Below are positions 10,763 through 42,900 of a DNA stretch of 45,595 bases, one piece after another (position 1 is the first letter of the stretch; each line of letters begins with the position of its first letter). The position numbers and the translations under genes are program-made. The DNA lies in assembly GCA_013214355.1 (NCBI GenBank), contig JABSSL010000053.1:1-45595 (forward strand), given 5' to 3'. Below the pieces are notes generated by a model. That model was not told the origin of the DNA and ran no database searches. It worked only from the letters and a program-made list of their open reading frames with translations. The stretch is from Saprospiraceae bacterium (GTDB lineage: Bacteria > Bacteroidota > Bacteroidia > Chitinophagales > Saprospiraceae).

Positions 10763-13159
10763 TCACTCTGTCCGTAGGGAGTGAACGGGGTTGGTACTAG
10801 CTAGGCGTGAAGCATGGTAACTAATCGTGAGGAATGCCACTCCGATGGCCAGTAGACTGACTAAGAAAACCAGTAGAAAATCCATTCCCAAGCGATAAGC
10901 AAAACTTTCTACCCAACTGTTGTACGAAAAGTAAATTATGGGTAGGGCTACCACCGCTGCCACCGCCACAATCACCAATACCTCTTTGAATAGTAGGCCC
11001 ACGATTTGATTTACGGAGGCCCCCAATACTTTTCGCACTCCCATTTCCTTCGTTCTCTGTGCCGTGGTATATGAAGCCAAACCGAATAGGCCGAGAGAGG
11101 AAATCAATCCACAAATGATCGACAACCAAAACAGCAATTTACTTTGTCGTTCATCTGAATTGTATAGGACATTGAGATCATCATCTAGAAAACTAAACTC
11201 CATGGGCAAATCAGGGATTATTGATCTCCATTGCTTGGTTAAATCCTGAATTGCATCTCTAGGGTCACCTTCCTTAATCCGTACAAAAATATTCCGACCC
11301 ACATTTTCAATAATGAATAAGGCAATCGGTAGCATGGGCTCATGCAAGGAATTGGTATTGAAATCTTCTACTACACCAACAACCTGTCCCAATTCTCTAT
11401 TTCCCAAGGAATCTTCCGTTGCTACAAATTTCTTCCCGATCGGCTCCTCCCAACCCTGCTTCTCGACAAAGGTTTCGTTCACAATCATGGCAAAGGTAGA
11501 ATCCGTTGGTCGGCCTAATTCGAAATTTCTACCTTCTATCACTTCCGTTCCCATGACCTCCAAATACTCATGATCTACCAACATATAACTTGTGGGCACA
11601 CGTTCCATACCCTCAGCGGTCTCAATAATAAAATCCGATCGGTCCACATAGATACCTGGAACTTGATTGGATAAGGTAACGCCTTTCACATATTCACTCT
11701 CCTTTAGTTTTTGCTTTAATGCCGTGATCTTCTGAGCCACACTTCTCGAACGGATCGGTATATTGATGACATTCTCTTTGTCAAAACCTAGATCTTTATC
11801 CCTTAGATAGTCAATTTGTCGTCCCATGAGCAGGGTGATTCCGACCACTCCAATGGAAATCATAAACTGAAAGACTACCAAAGTACGCCGTAGGAATATC
11901 CCTGATGTAGTATTCTTGAAAGCTCCTTTCAACACACCCATTGGCTCAATATTGGACAAGTAAAAGGCGGGATACAGGCCGGCCAGCAGGCTCACCAGAA
12001 CGAAAATTCCTAGGATGCCCAACACCAACTCGGGGTTACTAAATAGGTTTAAAGCCAGGTCCTTATCTAATAGCGCATTGAGGTTGGATGTATTGAATAC
12101 CAACTCGGTCAACCCCAAGGCAAGGACGCACGCGATGGCCGTGATAAATAGGGATTCCAGCATGAAGAATCGAATCAGCTGCGGTTTTGTAGCACCAGAC
12201 ACTTTCTTCACGCCAATTTCTTTAGCTCTACCAGTGGCCCTAGCCGTTGCCAAGTTAACATAGTTGATACTGGCCAATAATAGTATCAAAAGACCCACTG
12301 AGAAAAAGGCGTACAGATAACCCATATTCCCTTGTGGACGATCGTATGGAAGATCTGAGTTGAAGTGGATCTCAGTCAAAGGTTCAATAATGGGATGGAA
12401 GGTAGATTCTACATCATTTCCAGGATCTTGCCCGTATTTCTCCGCCCATTCAGGCATACGCGCCTTTACCGTTTCAATACTGGTTCCTTCCTTAAGCAGG
12501 ATGTAGGTGTAATCGCCAATAGAATTTAGAGATTGCCGGTCGGTCAGGCCAAAGTTTCCCTGTCCATTGTAGGTGGACATCAGACCATGATATACAAAGT
12601 GTGTATTCTTGGGCAAGTCCTTGTAAACGCCGGTGATCATTAGGTTCGCTCGATTGAATTTGAGCGATTTCCCCATTGGATCTTCCTCTCCAAAAATGCG
12701 CTTAGCCACTGTTTCGGAGAGAATCAAACTATTTCTACCATCCAAGGCTGTGTTGGGGTCGCCCTGGATAAAATCGAAATCAAAAATCTCTAATGCGGTG
12801 GAATCCGTCTCGTGTATACCATCCAAAAAGAAAGATTCATTACCATACTGAAAAAGCCACTTCTCCGAAATGAAATTGAAACGAACAAAGGATTCTATCT
12901 CCGTGAATTCTTCCTTCAACATCTTACCCAATGCCATCCCACTCAGCGCATACCGGTCCTCTCCTGCTGGCTTAATATAACTAGAACCAACCCGAAAAAT
13001 TCGCTCATGTTTAGTGTAGTGTTGGTCATAAGTCCATTCACTTTGCAAATAGAGAAAGGTGATAACAGCAACACTCATCCCAATGGCCAACCCCATAATA
13101 TTGAGGAAGGAATAGAACTTGGTTTTCCACAAATTGCGCAGTATTAGCTTAAATCTCAT
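10763..13159 (-). CDS. FtsX/MacB-type ABC transporter permease
   Basis: Large inner-membrane permease of 798 residues with the duplicated layout usual in Bacteroidota. A first transmembrane helix (SFLNIMGLAIGMSVAVITFL) is followed by a MacB-like periplasmic domain (~45-280), then three helices (~285-410). A second periplasmic domain follows (~440-680), with three final helices. The cytoplasmic loops carry the paired motifs TGRAKEIGVKKVSGATKPQL and TKEMGVRKVLGAS. Such proteins transmit ATPase-driven mechanical change to the periplasm, for example in export of peptides or lipids. No ATPase gene is adjacent, so the partner must be elsewhere. It is divergent from a sigma-54 response regulator and histidine kinase, which may control it. 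Confidence 0.92.
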   Translation of the reverse strand: MRFKLILRNLWKTKFYSFLNIMGLAIGMSVAVITFLYLQSEWTYDQHYTKHERIFRVGSSYIKPAGEDRYALSGMALGKMLKEEFTEIESFVRFNFISEKWLFQYGNESFFLDGIHETDSTALEIFDFDFIQGDPNTALDGRNSLILSETVAKRIFGEEDPMGKSLKFNRANLMITGVYKDLPKNTHFVYHGLMSTYNGQGNFGLTDRQSLNSIGDYTYILLKEGTSIETVKARMPEWAEKYGQDPGNDVESTFHPIIEPLTEIHFNSDLPYDRPQGNMGYLYAFFSVGLLILLLASINYVNLATARATGRAKEIGVKKVSGATKPQLIRFFMLESLFITAIACVLALGLTELVFNTSNLNALLDKDLALNLFSNPELVLGILGIFVLVSLLAGLYPAFYLSNIEPMGVLKGAFKNTTSGIFLRRTLVVFQFMISIGVVGITLLMGRQIDYLRDKDLGFDKENVINIPIRSRSVAQKITALKQKLKESEYVKGVTLSNQVPGIYVDRSDFIIETAEGMERVPTSYMLVDHEYLEVMGTEVIEGRNFELGRPTDSTFAMIVNETFVEKQGWEEPIGKKFVATEDSLGNRELGQVVGVVEDFNTNSLHEPMLPIALFIIENVGRNIFVRIKEGDPRDAIQDLTKQWRSIIPDLPMEFSFLDDDLNVLYNSDERQSKLLFWLSIICGLISSLGLFGLASYTTAQRTKEMGVRKVLGASVNQIVGLLFKEVLVIVAVAAVVALPIIYFSYNSWVESFAYRLGMDFLLVFLVSLLAIGVAFLTISYHASRLASTNPVHSLRTE

Positions 13160-13444
13160 GATTATTTTTCAACTTTAATTCAGCAGTTTGGAAATCGAGA
13201 ATTTTTAATCAATTTGCAAGCGACACTTCGCTACTCAGAGGGGAAGCCAGAAATCTCTACTTACCCTTCTGCATGACCGAGTACGCTTGGCTACATTTGA
13301 AATACTGCATTATTGTGCCAAAAAACATAATCAACTAATAATCAGCAAGTTTACAATAACATAAAGGAAAACACCGCAGAAAGCGACCGATTTCGTACAC
13401 CCAATTGTTCAACAGCGATCACCTAGTACACAATCAACCCGCCT
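13160..13444. promoter_or_regulatory. Divergent regulatory region between permease and two-component genes
   Basis: 285 bp between divergent starts. On the plus strand TACATTTG at 13292-13299 fits the -7 box, though no TTG lies at the right distance upstream. On the minus strand TGGCACAATAATGCA resembles a sigma-54 -24/-12 element, but the GG-to-GC spacing is one base short. The region must drive both directions. Which sigma factor is used cannot be settled from sequence. Confidence 0.35.
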
Positions 13445-13888
13445 ATGGCCAGAAAAAAACATAGTATACTCCTTATGGATGATGATCCAGATGTGTTGCG
13501 CACCCTGGAGATGGTACTAGGTTATTATTACACTACGGTTGACTCAGAGCGTCATATTGCCGCCTTGGAAGAAAAGCTCTCCCGTAACTCCTATGACCTA
13601 CTTATCCTAGACATGAATTTCCAGAAGGGGCAAATTAGTGGAAATGAAGGCTTATTCTGGTTAAAGAAAATCAAAAAAGCTCATCCAGCAACGGCCGTAA
13701 TATTGATCACCGCCTATGGAGAGGTGGAACTAGCGGTGGAAGCTATGAAATTTGGGGCAGCCGACTTTCTGCTCAAGCCTTGGTCGAATGAAAAGTTATT
13801 GGGCGTAGTAGAGAAGTCCTACCTCGTAAAGGGCTTAAGAAATCTAGTCAGCCAGATTCTTTTCTATTCGGTCAATCTGCGGCCATGA
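13445..13888 (+). CDS. Sigma-54 response regulator, receiver part (frame ends early)
   Basis: N-terminal receiver domain of an NtrC-type response regulator. Asp12-Asp14 form the acidic pocket, Asp56 in LILDMNF is the phosphoacceptor, Thr89 is in LITAYG and Lys111 in LLKPW. The frame runs on to a stop at 13888, but the last ~20 residues (after about VVEKSYLVKG) look unlike the family. The expected linker and the conserved FGQSAAM segment are instead encoded in the -1 frame over the same bases, running straight into the AAA+ domain. So this is probably half of one 450-residue protein. Frameshift mutation, sequence error, programmed -1 frameshifting, and two coupled genes (stop and next ATG overlap as ATGA) are all possible. 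Confidence 0.85.
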   Translation: MARKKHSILLMDDDPDVLRTLEMVLGYYYTTVDSERHIAALEEKLSRNSYDLLILDMNFQKGQISGNEGLFWLKKIKKAHPATAVILITAYGEVELAVEAMKFGAADFLLKPWSNEKLLGVVEKSYLVKGLRNLVSQILFYSVNLRP

Positions 13889-14766
13889 TAGCACTTATGA
13901 AGTCCACTGAAAAAATAGCGGCAACGGATGCCAATGTTCTTTTGTTGGGTGAAAATGGGACGGGGAAAAGTAGTTTAGCTCAATTCATTCATCAGCGATC
14001 TGAGCGTAAGGATCAAGTCTTCATTGCATCTGATCTTGGGGCACTGGATGATCAGCTCATGGCCTCTACCCTATTTGGCCACTTGAAAGGTGCCTTTACG
14101 GATGCACGTGAAGAGCGGCAAGGCTTGTTTCAGACGGCACATAGCGGAACTTTATTCCTGGACGAAATCGCCAATTTATCACTCCCTAATCAAGCCAAAT
14201 TACTACGTGTACTACAAGATCGAAAGGTGAGAAAATTGGGTAGCCATGAAGAAGAAATCATTGATATTCGCCTAATCACTGCTACCAACGCCGCTATCAG
14301 TGAACAAGTAGCCCAACAAGCGTTTAGAGAAGATCTTTTGTATCGTATCAATACCATTACCTTAACCATCCCGCCACTCCGGGAACGCTCCGAGGATATC
14401 CCCCTATTGTATCAACACTTTCTGGATGCCTTTTCTAAACGATATGATAAACAAGTGAGCACTAAAGCGGGAACCCTGAAAAAACTACAACGTTACCACT
14501 GGCCTGGCAACATCCGAGAGCTTAGGAATGCTATCGAAAGAGCCTTTATTCTTTGTGATGATGACGAGATTGGACCAAATGATTTTGTATTAGCGGAACC
14601 ACTCAATGATCAAAGGTTATTTGAATCCTATAATCTGATTGAGGTGGAGAAAATGCTGATTCTAAAGGCTATTGACAGTCACAATGGTAATTTGAGTCAA
14701 GCAGCACAAGCCTTGGGACTTACAAGACAAAGTTTGTATAGAAGAATGGAAAAGTATGATCTTTAA
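13885..14766 (+). CDS. Sigma-54 response regulator, AAA+ and Fis-HTH part
   Basis: C-terminal part of the regulator: an AAA+ ATPase that remodels sigma-54 polymerase, plus a DNA-binding domain. Walker A is GENGTGKSS (residues 22-30), the loop that contacts sigma-54 reads GAFTDA instead of the textbook GAFTGA, and Walker B is GTLFLDEI. Arginines follow in the RLITATN and FREDLLYRI regions. The Fis-type HTH is GNLSQAAQALGLTRQSLYRR at the C-terminus. The ATG at 13885 lies inside the conserved FGQSAAM motif, whose first part is encoded upstream in the same frame (open back to 13792); this shows that the domain originally continued from the receiver. The kinase gene overlaps its end by 11 bp. Confidence 0.88.
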   Translation: MIALMKSTEKIAATDANVLLLGENGTGKSSLAQFIHQRSERKDQVFIASDLGALDDQLMASTLFGHLKGAFTDAREERQGLFQTAHSGTLFLDEIANLSLPNQAKLLRVLQDRKVRKLGSHEEEIIDIRLITATNAAISEQVAQQAFREDLLYRINTITLTIPPLRERSEDIPLLYQHFLDAFSKRYDKQVSTKAGTLKKLQRYHWPGNIRELRNAIERAFILCDDDEIGPNDFVLAEPLNDQRLFESYNLIEVEKMLILKAIDSHNGNLSQAAQALGLTRQSLYRRMEKYDL

Positions 14767-16111
14767 TCGCTTTGCATTACTCGTCGGCCTTCGCCTATTG
14801 TTGCTACTAGCTTTATTAAGCGCACTTGCTGCCACGCAATTTGAACGCAAATGGCTATTTTCTGTCATCATCCTGAGTAGCCTCATTATTTTGGTCGTAG
14901 TCGAATTGCTACGTTTCATTAATCGGACCAATTTTGACTTGGTCAAATTATTACAGGCACTGGAAAAAGACGATTTCTCCACTCATTTCCAACAACGACC
15001 AAGCGGCCGGTCTTTCCGCAAACTATATGGGGCATTTAATAATGTTATAGATCGATACAAGGCAGCTCAGCTACAACAGGAGGCGCAAAAGGAATTTCTT
15101 AACATTGCTGTCAGCAAATTGAACGTTGGTGTGATTGCCCACGAGGAGAATGGGCGTATCCTGATTTTTAACGAATATGCTCGAAGTATAGTAGGGGATA
15201 TTATCCCACAGAATTGGGACATCCTGATCTTGAGAAAGATCCCAGTTATCCAGTTCCTACATAATATGCCGACGGATAGCCCACAGATCTATTCCCAGGA
15301 CACCGGCGCTCAGGATCAAAGTTTGCTGTTACAAGCCAGCCGATTCTCCTTGCTACAAAAAAATATTCGGCTATACACCATCAAAGATATTCGCTCTCAA
15401 TTAGACCAGAAAGAGGTGGAGTCCTGGCAAAAGGTAATTCGGGTACTAACCCATGAAATCATGAATTCATTAACCCCGGTCATTTCACTCACCGATATGG
15501 CAGGAATTATGTTGAATGACCTTGATCGGCCGAAGGAGGAAACCCAAGCTATCAAAGAGGCTTTAGATACTGCCCAAGGGCGAGCGAAGGGACTATTGAG
15601 TTTTGTGAAGAGTTATCGACAATATTTAAAAGTACCTACCCCCAACCTACAGTCAGAATCCATTACAGCCTTTAGTGAACAACTTGTTCAGTTGCTGAGT
15701 CCCAGATTGCAAAAGGCCGCTATCCACCTGGAATACACCCCCACTTCAGGCCTGCAAACCATGCTGGCGGATCAATACCTTTTGGAACAAGTTTTCATTA
15801 ACTTATTCACAAATGCGATTCAAGCGCTAGAGGGTATGCCGACACCGGTGATAAAATTTAAGATCAAGCAGGATGCACAGCGGATTACTTTCTCGATTCG
15901 TGACAATGGTCCAGGAATTGCTGAGGAGCAGGTAAGTGAGATCTTTGTTCCCTTTTATACCAGCAAGGAAGATGGGTCAGGTATAGGTTTAAGTATATCC
16001 CGGCAAATCGTCCAGGCTCATGGTGGACGCCTCTTCGTGCAAACTCAAGAAGGAAAGGGGGCCACTTTCTTTGTTGAATTACCTGTTCCAGAGAAATTGC
16101 AACAGATCTAG
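14756..16111 (+). CDS. Sensor histidine kinase (NtrB/ZraS-like partner of the sigma-54 regulator)
   Basis: Inner-membrane sensor kinase of 451 residues that should phosphorylate the preceding response regulator. Two hydrophobic helices lie within residues ~5-60, with very little periplasmic sequence between them. A HAMP-like or linker helix and a PAS-like segment (~110-210) follow. The dimerisation/phosphoacceptor domain has His233 in LTHEIMNSLTPV. The ATPase domain has the N-box NLFTNAIQAL, G1 RDNGPGI and G2 GSGIGLSISR. The almost absent sensor loop suggests that it detects a membrane or cytoplasmic signal. The 11 bp overlap with the regulator gene indicates one transcript and coupled translation. 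Confidence 0.93.
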   Translation: MIFNRFALLVGLRLLLLLALLSALAATQFERKWLFSVIILSSLIILVVVELLRFINRTNFDLVKLLQALEKDDFSTHFQQRPSGRSFRKLYGAFNNVIDRYKAAQLQQEAQKEFLNIAVSKLNVGVIAHEENGRILIFNEYARSIVGDIIPQNWDILILRKIPVIQFLHNMPTDSPQIYSQDTGAQDQSLLLQASRFSLLQKNIRLYTIKDIRSQLDQKEVESWQKVIRVLTHEIMNSLTPVISLTDMAGIMLNDLDRPKEETQAIKEALDTAQGRAKGLLSFVKSYRQYLKVPTPNLQSESITAFSEQLVQLLSPRLQKAAIHLEYTPTSGLQTMLADQYLLEQVFINLFTNAIQALEGMPTPVIKFKIKQDAQRITFSIRDNGPGIAEEQVSEIFVPFYTSKEDGSGIGLSISRQIVQAHGGRLFVQTQEGKGATFFVELPVPEKLQQI

Positions 16112-24079: not shown

Positions 24080-24406
24080 TTAGGCTTTTCCCGCTTTATT
24101 TTCTTCTTCCAAAAATGAATTGATGGCCTTCATAGCATGGCCTACTTTGTCGTAATTAATTCGGTAGTGGATAAACTTACCATCTCGCTCTGTTTCAACT
24201 AAACCAGCTAACCTAAGAATTCGCAGATGTTGAGAAGTAATAGATTGCTCCAGTTTCAAGGTATTATAGATTTTGTTGACATTGATCATTTCGTTACTGT
24301 CGATAAAACCTAAAATCCTTAAGCGAAGGGGATGTGCCAAGGCACGGAGAATCTCTGAGGACACCTGCAGGTTCTCATTGTTGATATTAAGCTTAGCCTT
24401 TCTCAT
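24080..24406 (-). CDS. ArsR-fold winged-helix transcriptional regulator (copy 1)
   Basis: Small DNA-binding repressor-like protein of 108 residues from the ATG at 24406. A longer frame to 24454 adds 16 unlikely residues. The winged helix contains ALAHPLRLRILGFI, then LEQSITSQHLRILRLAGLVE as recognition helix, and the wing ERDGKFIHYRIN. The ELxVCDL-type metal-binding cysteines of classical ArsR/SmtB sensors are absent, so it probably does not sense metal at that site. It is a clear paralog of the next gene on the same strand, with which it shares the LEQS..SQHL..LR.AG and GKFIHY segments. The two are separated by a strong terminator. Confidence 0.88.
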   Translation of the reverse strand: MRKAKLNINNENLQVSSEILRALAHPLRLRILGFIDSNEMINVNKIYNTLKLEQSITSQHLRILRLAGLVETERDGKFIHYRINYDKVGHAMKAINSFLEEENKAGKA

Positions 24407-24486
24407 AGAATTTTCGCCTTTTTTTGGTGGTAGATAGACAGAGCAAATATGCATTTTTTCTTTATCTTTCCAAAAGAAACATATAA

Positions 24487-24521
24487 AAAATGCTGTGAAT
24501 CTGTTTGATTCACAGCATTTT
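24487..24521 (-). terminator. Intrinsic terminator between the two ArsR-fold genes
   Basis: A perfect 15 bp stem (AAAATGCTGTGAATC and complement) with a 5 nt loop. Read on the minus strand it is followed by a run of six T. It ends the transcript of the gene at 24555-24893, so the two paralogs are transcribed separately. Confidence 0.9.
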
Positions 24522-24554: not shown

Positions 24555-24893
24555 TTAGATCGTCAAATCTTCTACTAATTTAGAGATTTGAGCCAAGCGA
24601 TCCTTATCCAATGAATAGTGGATGAATTTTCCTTGGCGATCTGTTTTTACCACTCCTGCTCTGCGAAGAATAGCTAGGTGTTGGGAAGCTACAGATTGCT
24701 CCAATCGCAACTTGATGTAGATATCCGTAACCGTCATATTCTCATTCTCATCCAACAGATCAATGATTCTTTGACGTAGTTTGTGGTTGACTGCTCTCAA
24801 AACCAAAACCGCTTTTCTCAACTCAGCGTAGTCCAATGGAATGTCGTTCGTCCCCTTCTTTAGAACAACTGTTTCATTTTTTTGCTTTCTCAT
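24555..24893 (-). CDS. ArsR-fold winged-helix transcriptional regulator (copy 2)
   Basis: Paralog of the preceding ArsR-fold gene, 112 residues. Key segments are VNHKLRQRIIDLLDEN, the recognition helix LEQSVASQHLAILRRAGVVK and the wing DRQGKFIHYSLD. It contains no cysteine at all, so a classical thiolate metal site is excluded. A charged N-terminal ~20 residues (KQKNETVVLKKG) precedes the fold. The AT-rich upstream region holds TATTTTTG on the minus strand (25011 down to 25004), a possible -7 box. Target genes are unknown; nothing obviously metal-related is adjacent. Confidence 0.9.
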   Translation of the reverse strand: MRKQKNETVVLKKGTNDIPLDYAELRKAVLVLRAVNHKLRQRIIDLLDENENMTVTDIYIKLRLEQSVASQHLAILRRAGVVKTDRQGKFIHYSLDKDRLAQISKLVEDLTI

Positions 24894-25216
24894 ATTTATG
24901 TTGTTTTATCAGTAGAAACAATTCTTACCTATTAGACTTCAAATATCATACCAAAACAAAGCATTAAAATATATTATAACACATAATTGCAGTGAAGCCT
25001 AGACAAAAATACTAAAAAATATATCAAAATAAAAAAATGTGTTAATATGTATTTGTGCTAAAAGGCCGGATAAGCGGTCCGATTTCATAAAAGAAAGGTC
25101 AAAACCAGCAAAAAATATCCTAGGTCCGCCCTCGGAAATGCAGCAAGTACGGGGGCTCCCCCAATTCAGATACACATATAAAGCAAAATAATACGTAAAC
25201 GGGAATTAATTCCCAT
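24894..25216. other. 320 bp AT-rich intergenic region
   Basis: Upstream region of ArsR copy 2 and downstream region of tsaB, both on the minus strand. It is strongly AT-rich around 24960-25060, with a candidate minus-strand -7 box at 25004-25011. No gene or good hairpin is seen. Confidence 0.4.
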
Positions 25217-25927
25217 TTAGAGAAATTTTTTCTTGGAAACGGTGATATTAGGAGGCTTCAGATAGAAAGGTTCGACATAAGCGACATCAACGAAGCGCTC
25301 TTCTTGGTAAGCTTGCAGGGCAAACGGTACCAAATGATAGGCTGAGGCTAGTACCGGCACAAAATGTATGTGAGGATGAGCTAGCACCTCTTCGGTCTTC
25401 GGTGCGCCATTCCCTCCCAGAATCAAATGCTTCTCTTGTTCTAGATAGGTATTAAATACATCACCATCAATTACTACCGCCTCCGGCTCCGCTAAAGCAT
25501 CGAGTTTATGGCTATACACTGCTCGATAAACCTCCATACGACGTGCGTCAATCATGGGAATATACAAGAGCGAGCTAGAAGACGAGATAGATTGAACTTG
25601 TATTGCCTTAGCCATGCCTCCCGCTAAGGCAAGCAAACTAGGCACCGTAATCAAAGGCTTGTCTAAAGCATAACAGATTCCCTTAGCCGTAGAGAAACCC
25701 ACCCGCAGCGAGGTATAGGATCCTGGCCCCATGCTCACGCTCACCGCAGATAGCTCAGCTAAAGATACACCCGCCGCCTCAATCGCTGCATCAATTAACA
25801 AGGTCATCTGCGAAGCATGCTGGTAGGCTTCCCGCGTTTCACTGAAGCCAATGACCTCCTCTCCCCTGCTCACCGCAATGGAACAGATATCGGTAGAGGA
25901 CTCAATATGTAAAAGGATGGGCTGCAT
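25217..25927 (-). CDS. tsaB: tRNA threonylcarbamoyladenosine biosynthesis protein TsaB
   Basis: Non-catalytic ASKHA-fold partner of TsaD and TsaE in making t6A37 on ANN-decoding tRNAs. From the ATG at 25927 the protein has 236 residues and begins MQPILLHIESSTDICSIAV, the family's ATPase-like first strand-turn. SMGPGSYTSLRVGFSTAKG is the TsaB signature, followed by PLITVPSLLALA. The frame is open a further 44 codons upstream, but those overlap a small basic ORF in another frame and do not resemble the family. The last residues (KKKF-rich) are basic, unlike the body. Confidence 0.93.
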   Translation of the reverse strand: MQPILLHIESSTDICSIAVSRGEEVIGFSETREAYQHASQMTLLIDAAIEAAGVSLAELSAVSVSMGPGSYTSLRVGFSTAKGICYALDKPLITVPSLLALAGGMAKAIQVQSISSSSSLLYIPMIDARRMEVYRAVYSHKLDALAEPEAVVIDGDVFNTYLEQEKHLILGGNGAPKTEEVLAHPHIHFVPVLASAYHLVPFALQAYQEERFVDVAYVEPFYLKPPNITVSKKKFL

Positions 25928-25994
25928 GGGGCGAAGATAGGGAAAGTGGAGGAGATCCATGTTTGCCCCATGCTGCTTGGGATAGGTTATTTTT

Positions 25995-26153
25995 TTAACT
26001 ACTAGCTTTTTTTCTATTTGCTCGATAACGACCTTGTTCTCTTTTCTTACGAGAAGCAAGACTAACTAACTGTTCAATACTAGGCTTTTTGGAAGTACTT
26101 TTGAAGTTGATAACTTTAGAGATGGCTATTTTAGGTTGTGGATCTACTTGCAT
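25995..26153 (-). CDS. small basic protein, 52 residues, unknown
   Basis: Open frame from ATG at 26153 to TAA at 25995, 67 bp upstream of the tsaB start and in the same direction. The translation begins MQVDPQPKIAIS and ends with a strongly basic tail (SRKKREQGRYRANRKKASS). The composition looks protein-like, with no rare-residue excess, and the frame is separate from the non-coding extension of tsaB. Basic tails of this kind occur in small nucleic-acid-binding proteins, but I recognise no family. It could be a leader gene of tsaB or chance. Confidence 0.4.
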   Translation of the reverse strand: MQVDPQPKIAISKVINFKSTSKKPSIEQLVSLASRKKREQGRYRANRKKASS

Positions 26154-26472
26154 GGTTGTTTCGTTGTGTTTGCTTCTGAAATAATTTGAAAGAGTTTTAG
26201 TAAAATCCTACTCCCTCAAATGTTTACTCTTTCAAGATCTTGAGTATTGCAGCGCTACTCAACCACACTTTTTCAGGATTTCCCCAAATCATCCTATTTT
26301 GATCCAGCTTGACCCCATTTGTTCGACATACCTTATAGCCAACAAACGACAGAACCCTATAAGCTTTAACTTCACCTTATAGCATCTAAACAACACTTCC
26401 CCGTGCGCCATTACGCTATTCACAAGAAGCTTTATTATCTTTCAAATCCATAGTCGTAAACTCCTTGACCCA
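26154..26472. other. 320 bp intergenic region between divergent genes
   Basis: Lies between the small basic ORF (minus) and the helical protein gene (plus). I see no defended promoter box, hairpin or open frame. Confidence 0.35.
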
Positions 26473-27885
26473 ATGCACAATACAAAGCTACTCCAGGTCT
26501 TAGCTACCTTGTCCGCTAAGGAATTAGAAGAGTTCCAAGCACATGTAAATGAGTTGTCCAAAAGAGAGGCGACAAAAAAACTGCTCGCCCATTTATCCAC
26601 CTTCGAGGATAAATGGCAGCATGAGGATCTTCAACTTGAAGCCGTAGGAAAACAACTGGGATACAAAGCTCCTTACAAAAGTCTTAGCAATAGAGCCTCT
26701 GATCTCTACAAAATTCTGATGGAGTTTATGGTTGTCCGTAGGCCATATTCAAAGGACTACAGATTTGAAAAAGAGTTTCTAGAGTTAAAGATCTTTGAAG
26801 AAAAAGCTGCGGATAAACTAAAGAAATTACAAAGGGAAAAGCTAATTAGGCAACTTGATCAATCCAAAACCAAGGATCAATGGTCAGCCTTTCGGCAAAT
26901 GCTATTGTATGATGTATCTTATTACAATAGCATAGAAGAGAATAGAATAGATCAAAAAAAAACAGAGATAGAACAATCCTTGAAACTGGAAGAACACTTT
27001 CACATCAGCTCTAGGTTAAAATATTCTACTGAATTACTGTCTCGTTCTCAAATCATGAAATTCCCTACTGAAAAGTACAATGCTCTGTTTGAGGAAGTAC
27101 TTTCTAGCAAAATAGATCCAACAGATAATTACCAACTTCTATATCAGGCCACATTTCGAGCACTATACACCCAGGTTCCGAAAGATTTTACAATTGCCTA
27201 TTCCTTGCTACAGCAAAAAGAGGAATTACTGACTAAAACAGATAGATACCAGATATTCCTCTACCTTATCAATGCAGTGGCACAGCATTCTAGACTAAAA
27301 ACCATAGAATACGGTCAACAGTTGCTAGCTCTATATAAGTTTGGATTACCTAGGAAACTCTTGTTTCATGAAGGCCAAATCACAAGAGTGACGTTTCTAA
27401 ATATTGTCGATATAGCAACTAAAATGCGTGATTTTGCCTTTGCTAAGGAGTTCATTAGAACTTATACCAAGAAGTTGCCAAAGGATTACCAAAAAGACAC
27501 CTCCACACTAGCGGAGGTCATGATTAAGTTCGAACGAAAAGAGTACGATATAGTATTAGAAAAACTTCGCACCTTTAATTTTAAATATCCTGATGAAAAA
27601 TTTCGCGCGCACATCCTTGTCCTTTGTACCCTTTACGATCTAAAGTCTGAACCCAATGTAATTTGGGACAAGTGTAATTCCTTTAGAACATTCACCAGTA
27701 GAAATAAGACAAAATTGAATTCTACTTTCCTGCTTGGCATAGAAAGTTTCATCAGTTTTGTCCAAAAGCTCCTACAACAGAAACTCTCTCAAGCGAGACT
27801 CAAAAACGATCTTAATCAGACGGATCCAATTGTTATGAGAATTTGGTTGCAAGAGAAGCTAGAATCGTATAAAGGAATTTCATAG
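26473..27885 (+). CDS. all-helical cytoplasmic protein of unknown function
   Basis: 470-residue protein with no signal peptide or membrane segment, predicted almost wholly alpha-helical and rich in Lys, Glu, Leu and Gln. It starts LLQVLATLSAKELEEFQAHV, a pattern I associate with a lineage-specific family of similar-sized Saprospiria proteins whose role is unknown; that association is from memory and not verified. Helical hairpins in the second half (for example TYTKKLPKDYQKDTSTLAEV) could be degenerate TPR-like repeats. Its A/T-richer codon use and isolation before a 1.8 kb non-coding stretch suggest an accessory gene. Confidence 0.75.
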   Translation: MHNTKLLQVLATLSAKELEEFQAHVNELSKREATKKLLAHLSTFEDKWQHEDLQLEAVGKQLGYKAPYKSLSNRASDLYKILMEFMVVRRPYSKDYRFEKEFLELKIFEEKAADKLKKLQREKLIRQLDQSKTKDQWSAFRQMLLYDVSYYNSIEENRIDQKKTEIEQSLKLEEHFHISSRLKYSTELLSRSQIMKFPTEKYNALFEEVLSSKIDPTDNYQLLYQATFRALYTQVPKDFTIAYSLLQQKEELLTKTDRYQIFLYLINAVAQHSRLKTIEYGQQLLALYKFGLPRKLLFHEGQITRVTFLNIVDIATKMRDFAFAKEFIRTYTKKLPKDYQKDTSTLAEVMIKFERKEYDIVLEKLRTFNFKYPDEKFRAHILVLCTLYDLKSEPNVIWDKCNSFRTFTSRNKTKLNSTFLLGIESFISFVQKLLQQKLSQARLKNDLNQTDPIVMRIWLQEKLESYKGIS

Positions 27886-29668
27886 TAAATACTCTACGTA
27901 GGAGTGCCTTCTTCCGCTTGAACAATCCCAGAAAGAAAACTATGGAGGCTCATTAATCCCATTGTAAAATGAAGAGCCTCCACAGTATGCCGTATTATAA
28001 AATGATTATCTGCTCAATGATAACCATTAGAAGATCTAATGTATCCATGATTTCGATTTTTTGATTAATGAATATGGTTAGAAGGGTTTCCCAATCACCG
28101 CTTCTGAGCGCCTGCAGCTACGCCTAAGCCATGCTGTGAATCCTTAGTTTTGGGCATAGCTCTGGCCCGACACAGAAAGGCCAACTTCTGCGCCTGATCA
28201 AGCCTATGCTTAGTTCTTGACATGACAGGTCCCTACTGCATCAATGACTGATACAGCCTTGTCTTACCTGTATTTATCGAGTTGTATTTTGCTAGCCATC
28301 CTCTAAGGATCGCTAGACGAGTTGTTATCTACTCTTATCGTTTCTTTCTTCTATCCATTAGTGTCGGTTTTCCCAAAATGTTACCCCTATTTCTGCCAAT
28401 ACTTTTCTAATTCGCTAAGAAATGTCTTTGAAATCAATCATTTGACTGGGCAAATATCCGAGCAAAAGCAGTATGGATAAAGCCTGTTCCAATTTTAAAG
28501 GCGTTTACGAAAATTTCTATAAATTTTCCTCTTGACCTCTTTATTCGAATCCGTGTCTCATGACTTTTCAAAAGCCAGTCTCTATTCATTCACATCAAGC
28601 ACATAGGTCATTTAGAATGGCCTAGTCACGTATTCATCTTGTTATAAGAAGATCCGAACCAGTGCCAACAACTTTATTTTTCTTCTCGACTTCCTTTCGA
28701 CCTACTTACAAAGGTCGCCATATATCACCGTCTCTCTCTCCCTAAAGGTGGATATACACTCAGCCCAAAATGACGACTACGTATACCTAGCTATAGGGCA
28801 TTTAGTCTCTTAGTCCTGTTGATCCAACTTTCTCCGCTTATTGATATATCCCCCCTTTTGTCTCCTCTTTCGATTAATCATAGCTATGATTCGCTCTACA
28901 AGAGAGAGCCCTCTCTTAGGTGATTTTTGTCTTACTTTTAAGGGAGAATTGGACATAAGCAAAGAATTAGTGTGGTTCAATAATTTTGGGCATACCACTC
29001 CCTGGCGAAATGGGTACATCTCCATCCGCTTGGGGAAGTATCAACCAGAAAATGTGTTCTAAAAAATCAGGGTTTTAGTAGGTCATTTTCTTAATTCATA
29101 AGCAAGGTATTAGCATTATTTGAATTCTGTAAGCATGACCTAGTAAGCACAAGCTATCAACCGGTGAAACCATCATTTTAATGAGGGAAGCATTTTGAGC
29201 CCCATACAGGCCCCGCCCTTTGTAATCGATTTCCTGGCCCTTTACAGACTGCAAGTTACATAGGATGGGCCCGCCAAGACATACTCAAAACTGTGTATTC
29301 GGACTCCCTAAAATTGATAATGCCTACTACCTATTAATGAGCTTAATTATTTACTACTCATGGGGATTGAGTTTGTAGTAAAGTGAATTTGAAACATCTA
29401 CACTTATATTATGGAGCGAACAGCGTCAAACATTACAAACGGGAAAAAATATTTAGACAAGCAAACTATACCATGGAGTCGGGTAAGCATGGAGAATAGA
29501 CTAGAAAATGGAGAAAAGGGTATAGACTTCCCTTTCATCAGCCTATAAAAAAAGCCCCACACACACCGTGTAGGGCTCCACATTTGGTCTAACAAGCTTT
29601 ATTGCTCCTGGTTGTCAGATAAGACAGACAGGCAAGCATTCGAAAATTCTGTATTTGGGTGCTTAGGG
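27886..29668. other. 1.8 kb stretch without a convincing gene
   Basis: The longest non-coding stretch in the window. Open frames here are at most 73 codons (28810-29062 on both strands) and look random. Local structures are a 9 bp stem with a 22 nt interior (TGGAGGCTC at 27943-27951, GAGCCTCCA at 27974-27982), which may end the upstream transcript, and a perfect 16 bp palindrome AATCATAGCTATGATT at 28876-28891. The right end holds the terminator of the TPR lipoprotein gene. It may contain an eroded gene or an unannotated RNA. Confidence 0.5.
29547..29577 (-). terminator. Intrinsic terminator after the TPR lipoprotein gene
   Basis: On the minus strand AGCCCTACAC pairs with GTGTGGGGCT (10 bp, one T-G wobble) around a 5 nt loop, followed by seven T. 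The wobble pairs only in minus-strand RNA, supporting that direction. It lies about 90 bp after the stop of the TPR gene and would end the sigma/DUF4331/TPR module. Confidence 0.88.
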
Positions 29669-31053: not shown

Positions 31054-33135
31054 CTATTTCGATTTCACTAGTTTCTGTATCTGAAGGATTTCTCCTCGTT
31101 CATTCATGATTCTGGCGAAGTAAAGGCCAGCAGGGTAAGCTCCCGCATTCCAATCCACCTCATAGGTGCCTGATTCCTGGAATCCCTTCACCAACTGCGT
31201 TAAGCGTTGACCTTGCATATTGTACACGTCGATGCTGATGGCTCCATCTTGCTCCATTTGATAGCGAAGTGTGGTGTTGTCTGTAAATGGGTTCGGATAG
31301 TTAGCCATGCGAACCTGCATAGGCACTTCTGTACGTGGAATGACGGTAGTGGCTGGCTGAATCATGTTGTCCGTCACCGGGCTCACGACCTGCCCACTGC
31401 AGATACCATCTCCTGCCCATGGTTGTGCCAGGTACGGAAATCGTCGTTCAAAAGGCTTATCATTAGCTTCGACACCAGTAGTGTAAGTCAAGACATTTAG
31501 CAGGTTCTGCGTTACGGGGTTCGGATCTCCGGCCGTATAATCATCATACCAAAGACCAATCGCCGCTAGTACAGCTCCTGAAACAGCTTGCAGTTCAATT
31601 CTTGTCACATCATCTTCCAAACGTCTACCATTAGGAAATCCATCCATATTTGGGATCCACTCTAAATCAGCAGAGGTATTATAGCGAGGGTCAGTAAGTC
31701 CCAGCACGGCAGCTTGTATCAACCCTAGAGAACTAAAGTCTGGATGATTACGGCGGGTGGCTGGGACAGCCATGTTAAGCCTTAGCATATCCCCACCGTT
31801 GGGTAGGAAGTTGTTGACAAAAGGTTTACCAGGGGCTAAGGGGTTTCCGGCCTTGCCTGTAGCCAATTGATAGGGAGGGAAATTGGGTACACCTGTATGG
31901 AAAGCAGGCCACAAGTCGACCGATCGCGGCAGGCCAGGTCCTGGCAGTAACAAAGTACCAAATATTGCGTCATCTAAGGCAGTGCCAGCGACAGCATCGG
32001 AGCCTTTCAACCCAAACAATCCATCATTACCATTGCCAAAATCGAAGGCTTGCAAGGAGTTTCGCTGAATCCGTAATGGTCCAAAGGCAGGTACTGCTCC
32101 GCCAAACAAATCATCATCCATATACAAGGCCAATTCTGGATTGTAGAAGTACTTGTCCAAAAGTGTATCGGCCAATTCATCGTAAGGGGTGATAGCGTTC
32201 CAATAATCTTTCATTCCGATGGGAATCACGGCTTCATTCGTCAAAGGCATACCCAGTCGAGATACCTGTACCCAGTCTCCTGAATACTCTTCTCCGCCTG
32301 GCCTTAGAGTTCGAATAGCTGGGCGGCTAGCGGAAGCCCATACCCCAATTACATAGTCAGGATCTAAAATATTGTCTGGACGCAAACGGCGAATACCTCG
32401 AACTTGTCGCTCAGAGCGCTTCAGCAAGTATGGGATCGGGATTTCCATCACAATCGCACTGGTATTCATACAGGCAATACCATCTTTTGGCGTATCGTTC
32501 TGACGTGGTGCGTCGCCCAGATCGAAGATACCTCCTAGGTCTACAAAAAATGGATCATCTACGGGTCCTGCGAAGACCTTTTCTCCGGTATGCGTTCGGC
32601 GAATCGCCCTTTTCATCAGGCGATCATAAGTTGTATTCAAACCTACTGGTGACTCAATCGATCGATCACCGATATAGTTAGGAGGGACAGGGCCATCTCC
32701 TAGAATTTTAAGCCAACTTCTACCATTATCAATACTCTTCTCTACATCGTATCGCATTCGCAAATTCTGCTTACCTAAACGAATATTGAAGAAGGTAGAA
32801 GGGTCCTCGGTTTCTTGATGAAAGGTAAATCGGTAGATGATTTCATCTCCTTCGATCGAAGCATCATTGTCGACGTGGATCTCATAGCGAATGTTCTCTC
32901 CGAAGTTGTAATAGTTGGGACCACCATGAGGAAGCTGCAAGGGCACATAGGTTGCAACAATAACGATGCTATTTTTATTATTGGGATTCCTGAAGGCGTA
33001 CAAATCCACATTATCAGCTAGTGGATCATCTGCGATCAATGGGGCTTCGCGGTGGCTAGAAGCCAGCAAGGAAGTACCCGAGACCAAGCCTATCAGCCCA
33101 AGGAATAGTACTTTTTTAAAGAAATGGGTTATCAT
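31054..33135 (-). CDS. DUF4331 secreted protein with T9SS type A sorting domain
   Basis: Exported protein of 693 residues. A signal peptide (~1-26) ends just before the DUF4331 opening SSHREAPLIADDPLADN. The DUF4331 domain fills ~27-600; its biochemical function is unknown. The C-terminal ~80 residues form a type A T9SS sorting domain (NYPNPFTDNTTL, then VYNMQGQRL, GLYFARI and a final KLVKSK), so the protein should cross the outer membrane through the type IX system and be released or anchored. The next gene upstream encodes a paralog, closely similar over the whole DUF4331 domain, that lacks the sorting domain. Confidence 0.93.
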   Translation of the reverse strand: MITHFFKKVLFLGLIGLVSGTSLLASSHREAPLIADDPLADNVDLYAFRNPNNKNSIVIVATYVPLQLPHGGPNYYNFGENIRYEIHVDNDASIEGDEIIYRFTFHQETEDPSTFFNIRLGKQNLRMRYDVEKSIDNGRSWLKILGDGPVPPNYIGDRSIESPVGLNTTYDRLMKRAIRRTHTGEKVFAGPVDDPFFVDLGGIFDLGDAPRQNDTPKDGIACMNTSAIVMEIPIPYLLKRSERQVRGIRRLRPDNILDPDYVIGVWASASRPAIRTLRPGGEEYSGDWVQVSRLGMPLTNEAVIPIGMKDYWNAITPYDELADTLLDKYFYNPELALYMDDDLFGGAVPAFGPLRIQRNSLQAFDFGNGNDGLFGLKGSDAVAGTALDDAIFGTLLLPGPGLPRSVDLWPAFHTGVPNFPPYQLATGKAGNPLAPGKPFVNNFLPNGGDMLRLNMAVPATRRNHPDFSSLGLIQAAVLGLTDPRYNTSADLEWIPNMDGFPNGRRLEDDVTRIELQAVSGAVLAAIGLWYDDYTAGDPNPVTQNLLNVLTYTTGVEANDKPFERRFPYLAQPWAGDGICSGQVVSPVTDNMIQPATTVIPRTEVPMQVRMANYPNPFTDNTTLRYQMEQDGAISIDVYNMQGQRLTQLVKGFQESGTYEVDWNAGAYPAGLYFARIMNERGEILQIQKLVKSK

Positions 33136-33267: not shown

Positions 33268-34992
33268 TTAATTCCCTGTTTCTGTTCCACTCCAAGGAGT
33301 AGCCACGTAAGGAAAAGAAGTTTTAAAAGCTTTGTCGTTTACTTCTACACCAGTCGTGTAGGTCAAAACATCAACCAAATCCTGAGTAACCGGGTTGGCA
33401 TCACCGGCGGTGTAATCATCATACCACAAACCCACTGCTGCCAATACAGCTCCGGACACTGCCTGCAACTCAATACGTGTAACATCATCTTCCAAGCGAC
33501 GTCCGTTAGGGAATCCGTCCATATTAGGGATAAATTCAAGATCGGTCGTAGTATTGAAACGGGGGTCCGTCAACCCAAGCACGGCCGCCTGAATCAAGCC
33601 TAAGCTACTGAAGTCTCCATTATTTCGATCGGTTACTGGGACGGCCATATTTAAGCGCAACATATCCCCTCCATTGGGTAAAAAGTTATGGATGAAGGGC
33701 TTTCCTGCAGCCAATGGATTTCCCTCTTTGCCTGTAGCTAATTGATAAGGAATTACGTTCGGAGCTCCGGTATGGAAAATTGGCCAAAGATCAACAGATC
33801 TCGGTTTGCCAGGGCCTGGCAATAAGAGCGTACCAAATACCGCGTCGTCCAAAGCGGTTCCAGCCACAGCATCTGAGCCCTTCAATGGGAATAGACCGTC
33901 ATTGCCATTACCGAAATCAAAGGCTTGTAATGAGTTTCGCTGAATCCGTAAGGCACTAAAAGCAGGTACAGCACCGCCAAACAAATCATCGTCCATATAC
34001 AAACCCAACTCTGGGTTGTAGAAGAATTTATCCAGAAGATCATCCGTTATTTCTTCATAAGGTGTAATGGAATTCCAGTAATCCTTCATCCCGATGGGGA
34101 TTACCGCTTCATTCGTCAACGGCATGCCTAGGCGAGAAACTTGTATCCATTCACCTTCCTCCACTGGCGCACTACCATTCGTTTGTAGGGTACGCATAGA
34201 CCTTCTGCTAGCAGATGCCCATACCCCAATGACATAATCAGGGTCTAATATGCTTGTAGGACTAGCTGCTGCTCCTTCTTTCAGAAGTGTACTGATCGGA
34301 ACTTGAATGGCGATCGTATGCACATTAAGTTGACCAACACCGTCTCTGGCAGGCTCACCTGATCTTGGTGAATCACCAAGGTCAAAAATTCCTCCAAGGT
34401 CCACGAAGAATGGATCATCTGCGGGTCCGCAGAATACCTTTTCTCCCGTACTAGTGGTGGTAATAGCATCCGTAATCAAACTCTCATAAGTAGTACCAAG
34501 GCCTACTCCACTCTCAATGGAACGTGGTCCAATATTGGTAGGTGGGACGATTCCATCTTGCACTAGCGTTTGAAAGCTCGCACCACCATCAATACTACGC
34601 TCCATCGTGTAGGTGGTCCGGATATTGATCTTTCCTAAACGGATGTTAAAGAATGTCGTCGGATCTTCATTGTTACGAGTAAAGGTAAATCGATAGATAA
34701 TCTCATCTCCAGGGCGGGTAGCATCATTGTCAATATGTACTTCGTAGCGAATATTTTCGCCAAACGTGTAGTAGTTGGGGCCACCATGCGGCAACTCAGC
34801 AGGAATGTAATTGGCTATGATCGTCACTGTATTGGGATCATCAGGACTCCGAAAAGCATAGACATCCGTGTTATCAGCTAGCGGATCATTAGCAATCAAA
34901 GGTGCTTCCCTATGGCTAGAGGCAAAACTCCCGATAGAACTACCTAAAAGAAGGGCCGCGATGACTAACCTCAGGGTTCTTTTTGCAATCAT
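33268..34992 (-). CDS. DUF4331 secreted protein without sorting domain
   Basis: Paralog of the next gene downstream, 574 residues from the ATG at 34992. That start gives a good signal peptide (KRTLRLVIAALLLGSS) directly before SSHREAPLIANDPLADN. A longer frame to 35109 adds 39 residues ahead of the signal peptide and is rejected. It is closely similar to its partner over nearly the whole length, with identical stretches such as LPNGGDMLRLNMAVP and RRLEDDVTRIELQAVSGAVL, showing tandem duplication. It ends soon after the domain, without a T9SS sorting signal, so it is probably periplasmic. One copy retained in the periplasm and one secreted would be consistent. Confidence 0.92.
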   Translation of the reverse strand: MIAKRTLRLVIAALLLGSSIGSFASSHREAPLIANDPLADNTDVYAFRSPDDPNTVTIIANYIPAELPHGGPNYYTFGENIRYEVHIDNDATRPGDEIIYRFTFTRNNEDPTTFFNIRLGKINIRTTYTMERSIDGGASFQTLVQDGIVPPTNIGPRSIESGVGLGTTYESLITDAITTTSTGEKVFCGPADDPFFVDLGGIFDLGDSPRSGEPARDGVGQLNVHTIAIQVPISTLLKEGAAASPTSILDPDYVIGVWASASRRSMRTLQTNGSAPVEEGEWIQVSRLGMPLTNEAVIPIGMKDYWNSITPYEEITDDLLDKFFYNPELGLYMDDDLFGGAVPAFSALRIQRNSLQAFDFGNGNDGLFPLKGSDAVAGTALDDAVFGTLLLPGPGKPRSVDLWPIFHTGAPNVIPYQLATGKEGNPLAAGKPFIHNFLPNGGDMLRLNMAVPVTDRNNGDFSSLGLIQAAVLGLTDPRFNTTTDLEFIPNMDGFPNGRRLEDDVTRIELQAVSGAVLAAVGLWYDDYTAGDANPVTQDLVDVLTYTTGVEVNDKAFKTSFPYVATPWSGTETGN

Positions 34993-35516
34993 GTTATTCA
35001 ATTTTGCGGTTTTCAATAATAGAACTGGTTTAAACAATGAGTTTGGGCATAACAATGCAGGGGCGGTAGTCGCGCGCTTACCGCTCATATTACTTTCTGT
35101 TTTGTCCATTTTTCTCAGACAATTCTTGTGTCATTGAGTCATACTTTTAGCTAGAAAACCTACTTCCATAGGTCGCAATTTTCCTATCTAAAACCTTACC
35201 CGTCTGGCCAGTTGGACAGGATCACAAAAATTGTCGGAGAAGGATACCTTTCGCTTGTTGTAGGTAGATACGGGTCCAGTTTTCAATTCGGTTTTACAAA
35301 AGGCGTTTTTTTTTACTATTTCTCTGATTTGCTTGTAAACAAAGGGCTTTAGCAGAAATTTTGTGGAAGATTTAGTAGTAAAAGGTGAGGAAGTTGGCAA
35401 AGTGATAGATCCAAACAGGGTAAGTTAAGATAGGATATACCTGACTAAGCAAACCAGCAAGTCAACCTAAGGATCTAGCCTTATCGACAATTATAATCCG
35501 CTGCAGATTCGAGCAA
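34993..35516. other. 520 bp intergenic region upstream of the DUF4331 pair
   Basis: Separates the anti-sigma gene from the DUF4331 genes on the same strand. A 70-codon minus-strand frame (35188-35400) looks random. This is where a promoter recognised by the neighbouring ECF sigma factor would be expected, but no motif repeated upstream of the sigma gene itself was found by eye. Confidence 0.4.
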
Positions 35517-39928: not shown

Positions 39929-42900
39929 ATGAAAAAGCTACTTTTACTAGCTTTCCAATTAGGATTTCTACTCCCCCAACTCAGTGGTCAGTCTACAGCT
40001 AGCTATTTGAAGAGTGCAGAAGAGGCATTTGCAGCTAAAGACTATGCTACCGCATACATACACGCTAAAGAAGTGCTCAAAAGAGATTCCAGTGCCAATC
40101 TGGATCTTCTCAAAATTGCCATGATGGCTTCTGTCGAGGTGTGTGAATTTGATCAGGCAGAGCAGTACATGCGCACTATTAGCTCCATAGCTCCTGATGA
40201 CAACGATCCTATTCTTACCTTTTATCGCGCAAAAAATCAACACCGCCAAGGTAATTACGAAGAGGCTATCCAGGCCTATGATGATTTCATCGGCAGTTCT
40301 GGTAGTAACAATCCAGAATTGGTTGCCCTTGCCAAACAAAAAGTATCAGAATGTAATCAGCTTCTAGGTCCAAAGATGTACTTAGTAGAGAGAGACAGCA
40401 ACCCCTCTATTAGTACCCCCAGAATGCTAGAAGATTTAAGCACTCCCGGGCAATCTGACTTTGCCATGCCAATTTTCAAAGACAACATCATCGTAGGGAA
40501 ACATACTCCACCAGAACAATGTGAATGTGAAAAACCCTGTTCAGATAAGATCTCTTTATTAGAAAGAAATACTTCAGGTGCAGCCAATAAACTGGCACTT
40601 CCAAAGAGCTTCAAAAAAGTAGGCCATATCACCTATGCTAATGAAGGGCAGCGAGTATATTTCACCTCTTGCAAGTGTAAAGACGACTCTTACACCTGCG
40701 AAATATACTATGCCGATCGCGATGGTAGTAGCACTGGATGGTCTTCTCCGGTAAAACTTCCGGCTCATATCAACCATGGGAAGGGCTATACTAGTACTCA
40801 ACCATTTTATCTGGAGGGAAAAGATAGAGGCAAAGATATTTTATTCTATGTCTCGGATTTTCATGGAGGACAAGGAAGCGGTAGAGAAGACCTCGATATT
40901 TACTACTCCATAGTGGAAGGAAATGATCATAAACCTTCGGTAAGTTTGAATGAAATCAATACTACTGGTGATGAAGTCACCCCCTACTTCCACAATTCTA
41001 CCCGTACCTTCTTCTTCAGTTCCAATGGCTATATGACCTTAGGAGGTTTTGACTTCGATATCTTCAAATACACGCCATCTGAGAGCGATTATATATCACA
41101 ATTCCTACGATCTACATCTGAAGCTGAGAATAGTGAATGTTCTGGAAAATCTACCATATCAGGGTTCAGTCGCGAAGTCCAAAATATGGGTAGTCCTATC
41201 AACACTCAATTTGACGATTTATTTTTTAGTCAAGAAGAGGGTGGTGATAAAATGATTTTCTCTTCTAATCGAGAAGGGCACAAGTACGCTGAGTTGGAAC
41301 ATTGTTGCCCAGATGTTTTTGAAACAGTCTATAACCCCAAGGTGGATATCATAGTTTCTGTCTTCTGTGAGGGTGAGGAATATTGCCGCCAAGACGGTGA
41401 TAACCCTGAACCTATTGGAAAGGGTGTCGCTGATCTATTACAATGGGAAGGAGAGTATAAACTTCCTACACCGGAGCGTCCAGGTAACAACAATGTATTC
41501 AAATTCAGGGGCATTCCGTTGGATATGACTTTCAAAATGACGGCCACCTTAGGACCAGAATCAGGTTATACGCCGGCCAGCGGTGAAATCTACACAGGGA
41601 AATGCGATGGAGAGACGATAAGATTAAACTTGGTTCTAGTACCTGATCTATATTATAGTATCAATTTTATTGACCAGTGTGACGAGTCCAAAGCCGTAGA
41701 TGTAAGCAACTTTGTACTTAGGGATAACGACACAGGGCAAGCCGTCCCACCTATCGAGCAATCAGGCACCCATACTTTCAAATATCAGTTGTGTCCCAAT
41801 ACTACTTATAGTTACACTACAGATGGTTGTTCTGCCTTAGATGCCAACTATCGCTTTCCTAAAAGTTTTTCAAAGACCATCACTACGACTTGTGCTCCCC
41901 TAGATGACCAAGAGACTATCCCACTGATTCCACCCCAGCCACTAGTAGTCAACTTTGTCGAGTACTGTGATAATGGCATTCCTGTACCCGTTAATAATTT
42001 TGTGCTGAGGGATCAAGCTACTGGTGCGGAAATTAGCCCAGTTAAGACCGATGGAGGTCACACCTATAGCTACGAGATCTTTGCCGGCTCCAAATATGAA
42101 TTTAATCCTGACGAAGCCTCCCCAGTAGATGAAGAATACGTTTTCTCAGATAAAGGAGAATTGACCACCGTAGATGCGGCTTGTGATGGTAGAAACTTTA
42201 TTATTCCACTCCACAAACAGACGCCAATAGTCCTAGACTTTAATCTTCCTTTATACTTTGACCACGATCAACCTAGAGTTGAAAATGTTCAGCAAGATGG
42301 ACAAGTTAGGGACTATACTTCTTTCTTTGAAAGCTACCTGACCGGAGTAGATTTTGACCAAACGGTAAGGCCCTACAGGGACGACAGCGAGTACCAAACT
42401 CAAAGGAATCAACTTAGGTTGGCGGATGCAGCTTTAGTAAATGGCATAAACAACGATTCTCTTAGAATACGATATCAGGACTACCTTCAGGCCGTAAGCG
42501 ATGGGCGAGCAAGAGGATCTGTAGCTGGTAGTAGTTGTAATGGAGATACTACCGAACTTGCGGTCAGAAATTTCTTCAATGAGCTACGAAGTAACTATCA
42601 ACAATTTACCTCTTCTTTAACAGATCAAGTTGAGCTGCTTTATGAAGCTGGTTATGATATCAAAATTATCGTCGAAGGAGCCGCTAGTGGATCAGGAGGG
42701 CTAGTGCACAACAATAGCCTATCAGGAAGACGAATCGCTACGATTACCGAGTACTTTAGGGACTATATCGAAAAGCAAGTTGGAGAATTTGATGCAACTC
42801 GCTTCAGTTATGTTGAACGACAGAAAGGTTCCAGTGAATACGAAGGAAATTACCCGCGCAGGGGCGTATGTAGAATCTATGATGTCAGAGCTGCTCGAGA

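Follow-up and report, generated by a model that had tools for sequence, protein, structure and literature searches.

An NtrC-type response regulator gene with a private -1 frame lesion in a draft Saprospiraceae genome

In a stretch of 45,595 nucleotides from a Saprospiraceae bacterium (hereinafter, the window), the receiver domain and the sigma-54 AAA+ domain of a response regulator are encoded in two overlapping open reading frames that are related by a -1 shift, and the overlap contains a heptamer that fits the slippery X_XXY_YYZ pattern. The question that this arrangement raises is whether the two frames are joined by programmed ribosomal frameshifting at the heptamer, as proposed in a preliminary description of this DNA, represent two proteins that are made separately by design, or are the remains of a single, ordinary gene whose frame was disrupted by an indel, either real or introduced in sequencing. 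The window belongs to an 11.2 Mb draft genome in 224 contigs, and the locus was compared with the corresponding contigs of three congeners (C72 of G001, C71 of G002 and C32 of G003) as well as with paralogous regulators from the same genome. The features of the locus are listed in Table 1.

Table 1. Features of the regulator locus and its immediate neighborhood (positions in the window)
Feature	Positions	Strand	Basis
Divergent MacB/FtsX-type permease gene	10763..13159	-	Pfam MacB_PCD, FtsX
Receiver-domain part of the regulator, 147 aa	13445..13888	+	Pfam Response_reg; frame comparison with G001, G002
Open -1 frame: linker, sigma-54 AAA+ domain, AAA lid, Fis-type HTH	13792..14766	+	Pfam
Interval of the net -1 frame change relative to congeners	13810..13822	+	Switch-point scoring against G001, G002; DNA alignment with G001, G003
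AAAGGGC, proposed slippery heptamer; AAA GGG C (Lys-Gly) in the congener-homologous frame	13828..13834	+	
First ATG of the AAA+ frame; forms ATGA with the receiver-frame stop	13885..13887	+	Internal Met in 3/3 congeners
Histidine kinase gene, intact, 11-nt overlap with the regulator	14756..16111	+	Pfam HATPase_c

One regulator in two reading frames

The receiver ORF and the AAA+/HTH frame are two parts of one NtrC-type response regulator split by a net -1 frame change. Pfam searches identify Response_reg at residues 8-122 of the first ORF (E 1.1e-20) and, in the second frame, Sigma54_activat (E 1.7e-60) and HTH_8 (E 5.7e-15), with AAA_lid_14 among further matches; the NtrC-type set of receiver, sigma-54 AAA+ domain and Fis HTH is complete, divided between two frames in the window and contained in a single frame in the congeners. 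As read from the sequence, the AAA+ frame is bounded upstream by the TGA at 13789-13791; counted from its first ATG, it is an ORF of 293 aa (13885-14766, with the stop at 14766), and the entire open frame is 86% identical to the G001 protein over 324 residues. ORF reading and Pfam bear out the extent of both frames and their -1 relation as initially described, and it is indeed the -1 frame that encodes the FGQSAAM block noticed ahead of the AAA+ domain, the last codon of the block being ATG 13885.

The interpretation of the two ORFs as a single interrupted protein is borne out by the congeners, in all three of which receiver, linker and AAA+ domain occupy a single open frame across the junction. 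The intact orthologs consist of 440 aa in G001 and 441 aa in G003; the G002 gene is spread over two contig ends (C71 and C525), with the junction covered and the frame open through it to the contig end. Accordingly, the frame transition is conserved in none of the three congeners, and the lesion is private to the window genome. Four paralogous regulators in that genome (L002, L003, L004 and L005) likewise carry the end of the receiver and the Walker A motif in one frame, a count that leaves out three loci (L008, L009 and L010) in which the motif expressions found no receiver. No intact duplicate copy of the gene was found in the same genome: the closest other match shares 54% identity and is, therefore, a paralog.

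The surroundings of the regulator are shared with the congeners. The 11-nt overlap between the kinase and regulator genes is identical in G001 and G003, and the divergent permease gene is a neighbor in the contigs of both these genomes as well. A search of the region 13160-13444 yielded no match to the sigma-54 promoter pattern, for which the window contains 32 matches compared to 34.6 expected. Near the start of the regulator, within codons 3-5, there is a run of seven A (13453-13459, plus strand) that also comprises seven A in G001 and could be a slippage tract. Transcript slippage at this run was considered and rejected, given that the resulting -1 frame runs into the TGA at 13789-13791 and so never reaches the AAA+ part.

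The site of the frame change and the candidate recoding signals

The window sequence and those of G001 and G002 are comparable codon by codon apart from the net -1. Of all the switch points scored, the best have 13816 (against G001) and 13819 (against G002) as the start of the -1 frame. G003 was not scored in this manner because its linker contains gaps; its match to the receiver likewise ends at 13819. Placing the switch after the heptamer lowers the score by 29 (G001) and 23 (G002) BLOSUM62 points. Immediately upstream of and across the heptamer, the -1 frame of the window reads VLPRKG, to be compared with VLPRKG in G001, SLPRKG in G002 and ALPKRK in G003, and the receiver frame over the same stretch reads SYLVKG; the allegedly natural join through YLVKG thus falls where the congeners have LPRKG, LPRKG and LPKRK. 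These residue matches place the homologous frame switch upstream of the heptamer, so that LPRKG, which spans the heptamer, belongs to the -1 frame; with the best switch points preceding position 13828, homology does not change frame at the proposed join. A coarser, homology-free scan of codon statistics is contrary to this result, as its best switch falls at 13837, immediately past the heptamer; we gave more weight to the homology-based switch because it uses residue matches. Relative to G001 and G002, the first 121-125 or so codons of the receiver ORF are homologous and the last 22-26 or so are out of frame.

The heptamer A_AAG_GGC is present in the receiver phase, as previously pointed out, but its occurrence at the overlap is no more than chance gives: in-phase X_XXY_YYZ heptamers number 54 over the 28,830 nt of the 24 listed genes of the window, which gives an expectation of 0.17 per 93-nt overlap. 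None of the three congeners contains AAAGGGC in the slippery phase. In G001, the same letters are read as CGA AAA GGG CGC, that is, in the non-slippery phase AAA_GGG_C; G002 has AAA GGA CGT (AAAGGAC) instead, and G003 lacks AAAGGGC at this place. It was thus the lesion that produced the A_AAG_GGC phase in the window, as a side effect. Relatives with a continuous frame and no slippery site were named beforehand as grounds for refuting programmed shifting, and with a continuous frame and no slippery-phase AAAGGGC in all three, a programmed shift at this heptamer is not supported. The stem 3' of the heptamer fares no better as a signal: no downstream stimulatory structure was detected by pseudoknot-free folding of the 60 nt that follow the heptamer, which fold at -9 kcal/mol, with 79 of 200 shuffled sequences at least as stable (z -0.14).

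Some of the congener linkers contain heptamers of their own. There is an in-phase A_AAA_AAA in G002 (L028), at the place equivalent to window position 13810, and two in-phase heptamers in G003 (L014), namely, A_AAA_AAC, which lies some 3 nt away from where the window has its heptamer, and A_AAA_AAA further on; the G001 linker has no in-phase heptamer. A -1 slip at these three sites leads to a stop after 7, 6 and 6 codons, respectively, and because the G002 and G003 genes are continuous, such a slip would join no halves. A dnaX-type release signal in the congeners would give rise to a receiver-only product through a -1 slip in the linker. This candidate was rejected inasmuch as neither the motif nor its position is common among the three linkers. 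Among the nine paralogous loci, five have no linker heptamer, and in the remaining four there are one or two, of different kinds from these. With neither motif nor position common to the linkers, we read these heptamers as lysine-rich codons.

The ATG at 13885 corresponds to an internal methionine of the congener proteins (SPPM, SPAM and SPAM) and thus is not a designed start; initiation at this codon would drop FGQSAA, with which the Pfam match begins (6 residues). The ATGA overlap is, then, incidental, which leaves without support the receiver-free AAA+ protein coupled through ATGA that had been put forward as an alternative.

Constraint on the gene and integrity of the assembly

To gauge selection on the two pieces, counts of private residues were used in place of dN/dS because synonymous sites were saturated in 14 of the 15 pairs compared (pS of 0.73-0.92 over all 15). 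Among 121 receiver positions, 6 residues are private to the window, 5 to G001 and 5 to G002; among 148 positions of the AAA+ part, the respective counts are 9, 8 and 5. When polarized by G003, the counts for the window and G001 are 4 and 3 of 121 positions, and 4 and 7 of 315 positions. No relaxed selection is visible from these counts in either the receiver or the AAA+ piece, and in the absence of an excess of private residues, ordinary constraint acted on the gene until recently, if it does not still do so.

The regulator is the sole gene split between frames among the 28 G001 ORFs that were compared with the window; the contig comparison kept 29, one of which (24953-28408) has no match other than a distant one at 25% identity and was not counted. 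Stops occur within the best window match of five other G001 ORFs: for four of these, the window open frame spans all but 12-18 nt at the ends, and the fifth (15178-15534) matches at 59% identity over 70 residues, with 2 stops. Conversely, four window ORFs have one stop within their best G001 match, where the G001 open frame spans all but one end (18-87 nt). An ab initio scan for frame breaks, which detects solely pairs of overlapping open frames, was run over the window and 400 kb of the same genome (445.6 kb altogether) and ranked the regulator pair first of 20 candidate pairs, with a score of 3.8 compared to 2.2 for the next one. Judging by this ranking, such breaks are uncommon in the assembly.

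No tandem repeat was found in 13400-14800. Within 13810-13822, the longest base run in the window is 2; the equivalent place holds a run of A in G001 (5) and in G002 (7). Phase variation was ruled out on these grounds, that is, the lack of a tandem repeat in the region and of a run longer than 2 bases in the interval.

Several other genes of the window stand out in the comparison with G001. Two adjacent genes on the minus strand (31054-33135 and 33268-35109) encode DUF4331 proteins, and one of these also carries a Por secretion C-terminal sorting domain. When cross-matched with the copies in G001, they are approximately 72-73% alike, and each is 95-96% identical to its own G001 counterpart. 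Two adjacent ArsR-type HTH proteins (24083-24520 and 24558-24905, minus strand) are 44-51% alike in cross-matches and show 99% and 100% identity to G001, far above the immediate neighbors (78% and 87%). A 1023-aa protein (39929-43000, plus strand), with PD40 as its sole match (20.8 bits against the Pfam cut-off of 20.9), is among the less conserved in the window, with 67% identity to G001 in the first part and 40% in the later part.

Competing explanations and comparison with known systems

The window gene is an ordinary NtrC-type regulator with a private frame lesion and no recoding signal. In all likelihood, this lesion is a single, isolated net -1 change around 13810-13822, in an ordinary gene that precedes its kinase, and came about either as a recent indel or as a base error in the draft assembly; a real or sequencing indel was already among the alternatives initially listed, in agreement with a private lesion. 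Recent mutation or a sequencing mistake is favored over a programmed shift because the three congeners lack the frame change, and we consider the two origins about equally probable. There is an even chance that the sequence is in error and the gene is intact in the organism, given that both pieces look fully constrained, that the kinase and the other compared genes are unsplit and that the genome is a draft in 224 contigs; on the other side, the site lacks a homopolymer, and no other pair in the scanned sequence scored as high, so the assembly does not look error-ridden. Somewhat short of even are the chances of a genuine recent indel in the strain that turned the regulator into a fresh pseudogene or two fragments. 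The rarity of frame breaks in the sampled sequence is compatible with such a mutation; the place is A-rich in G001 and G002, so a tendency to slip is conceivable, even though the window sequence contains no run there; and four paralogous regulators in the genome, at 45-54% identity, might buffer the loss. However, neither piece shows a second inactivating change or more private residues than expected, so the event must have been recent. We infer this recency, and also the functional consequence if the lesion is real: translation would yield a receiver with a scrambled tail and, at most, restart at ATG 13885 would add an AAA+/HTH fragment that lacks the receiver and the FGQSAA block, so that, with the receiver parted from the AAA+ and HTH domains, the pathway would be uncoupled from its kinase.

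The readings that assign a function to the split appear highly improbable. A deliberately divided system, with a receiver and a receiver-free AAA+ protein translated through ATGA coupling, would account for the overlap of ATG 13885 with the receiver stop; we consider it very unlikely given that this ATG is an internal methionine of single-frame proteins in all three congeners, that the start would lose the beginning of the Pfam match and that the last 22 or so codons of the receiver ORF match nothing in the congener frame. Lower still is the probability that the lesion, if real, shifted the pre-existing Lys-Gly codons AAA GGG C, located a few codons downstream, into the A_AAG_GGC phase and thereby created a site for slipping back, a fortuitous newborn signal that suppresses its own frameshift mutation, in a linker that holds A-rich heptamers of the slippery type in two of the three congeners as well. 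If so, small amounts of the complete regulator would continue to be produced, with changes at several linker residues. In a systematic study in E. coli, A_AA.G_GG.C is among the 18 motifs chosen, is under-represented and yields more than 0.10% shifting without stimulators (PMC4066793); it is, then, weakly shift-prone in that bacterium, and a trace of fortuitous fusion is possible. The same value, along with the correct phase of the heptamer and the codon-statistics switch just after it, is what can be adduced for programmed -1 frameshifting at 13828-13834. This is the least probable of the readings weighed here, considering the single frame in all congeners, the non-slippery phase in G001 and the missing AAAGGGC in G002 and G003, the homology switch upstream of the heptamer, the chance-level stem and the expected frequency of in-phase heptamers in an overlap of this size.

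A two-component regulator is thereby struck from the candidates for programmed frameshifting, and the annotation of the gene should carry a frame-disrupted mark. The locus also illustrates a trap: an ordinary lesion can bring AAA GGG into the slippery phase and an internal methionine into an ATGA overlap, and so mimic recoding. A search of the open-licence literature for programmed frameshifting combined with a response regulator and sigma-54 found no report.

Like NtrC-type sigma-54 response regulators, the window gene encodes Response_reg, Sigma54_activat and HTH_8 in this order, next to a histidine kinase; the difference is that the frame is broken in the linker between the receiver and the AAA+ domain. 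Genes with programmed -1 frameshifting include those for DNA polymerase III subunits and insertion-sequence transposases (PMC4066793, PMC3711429), and the window shares with them an in-phase X_XXZ_ZZN heptamer near a two-frame overlap; the differences are that the congeners do not share the heptamer, its phase or the break, that no supporting structure was found and that the homology switch is off the heptamer. In the GeneTack survey, a conserved frameshift site is a feature of programmed frameshift clusters, and non-clustered frame transitions (singletons) are considered likely indels or sequencing errors (PMC3711429). The regulator split resembles these singletons, with a private transition, homology on both sides of it and no conserved frameshift site, and differs from them in nothing notable.
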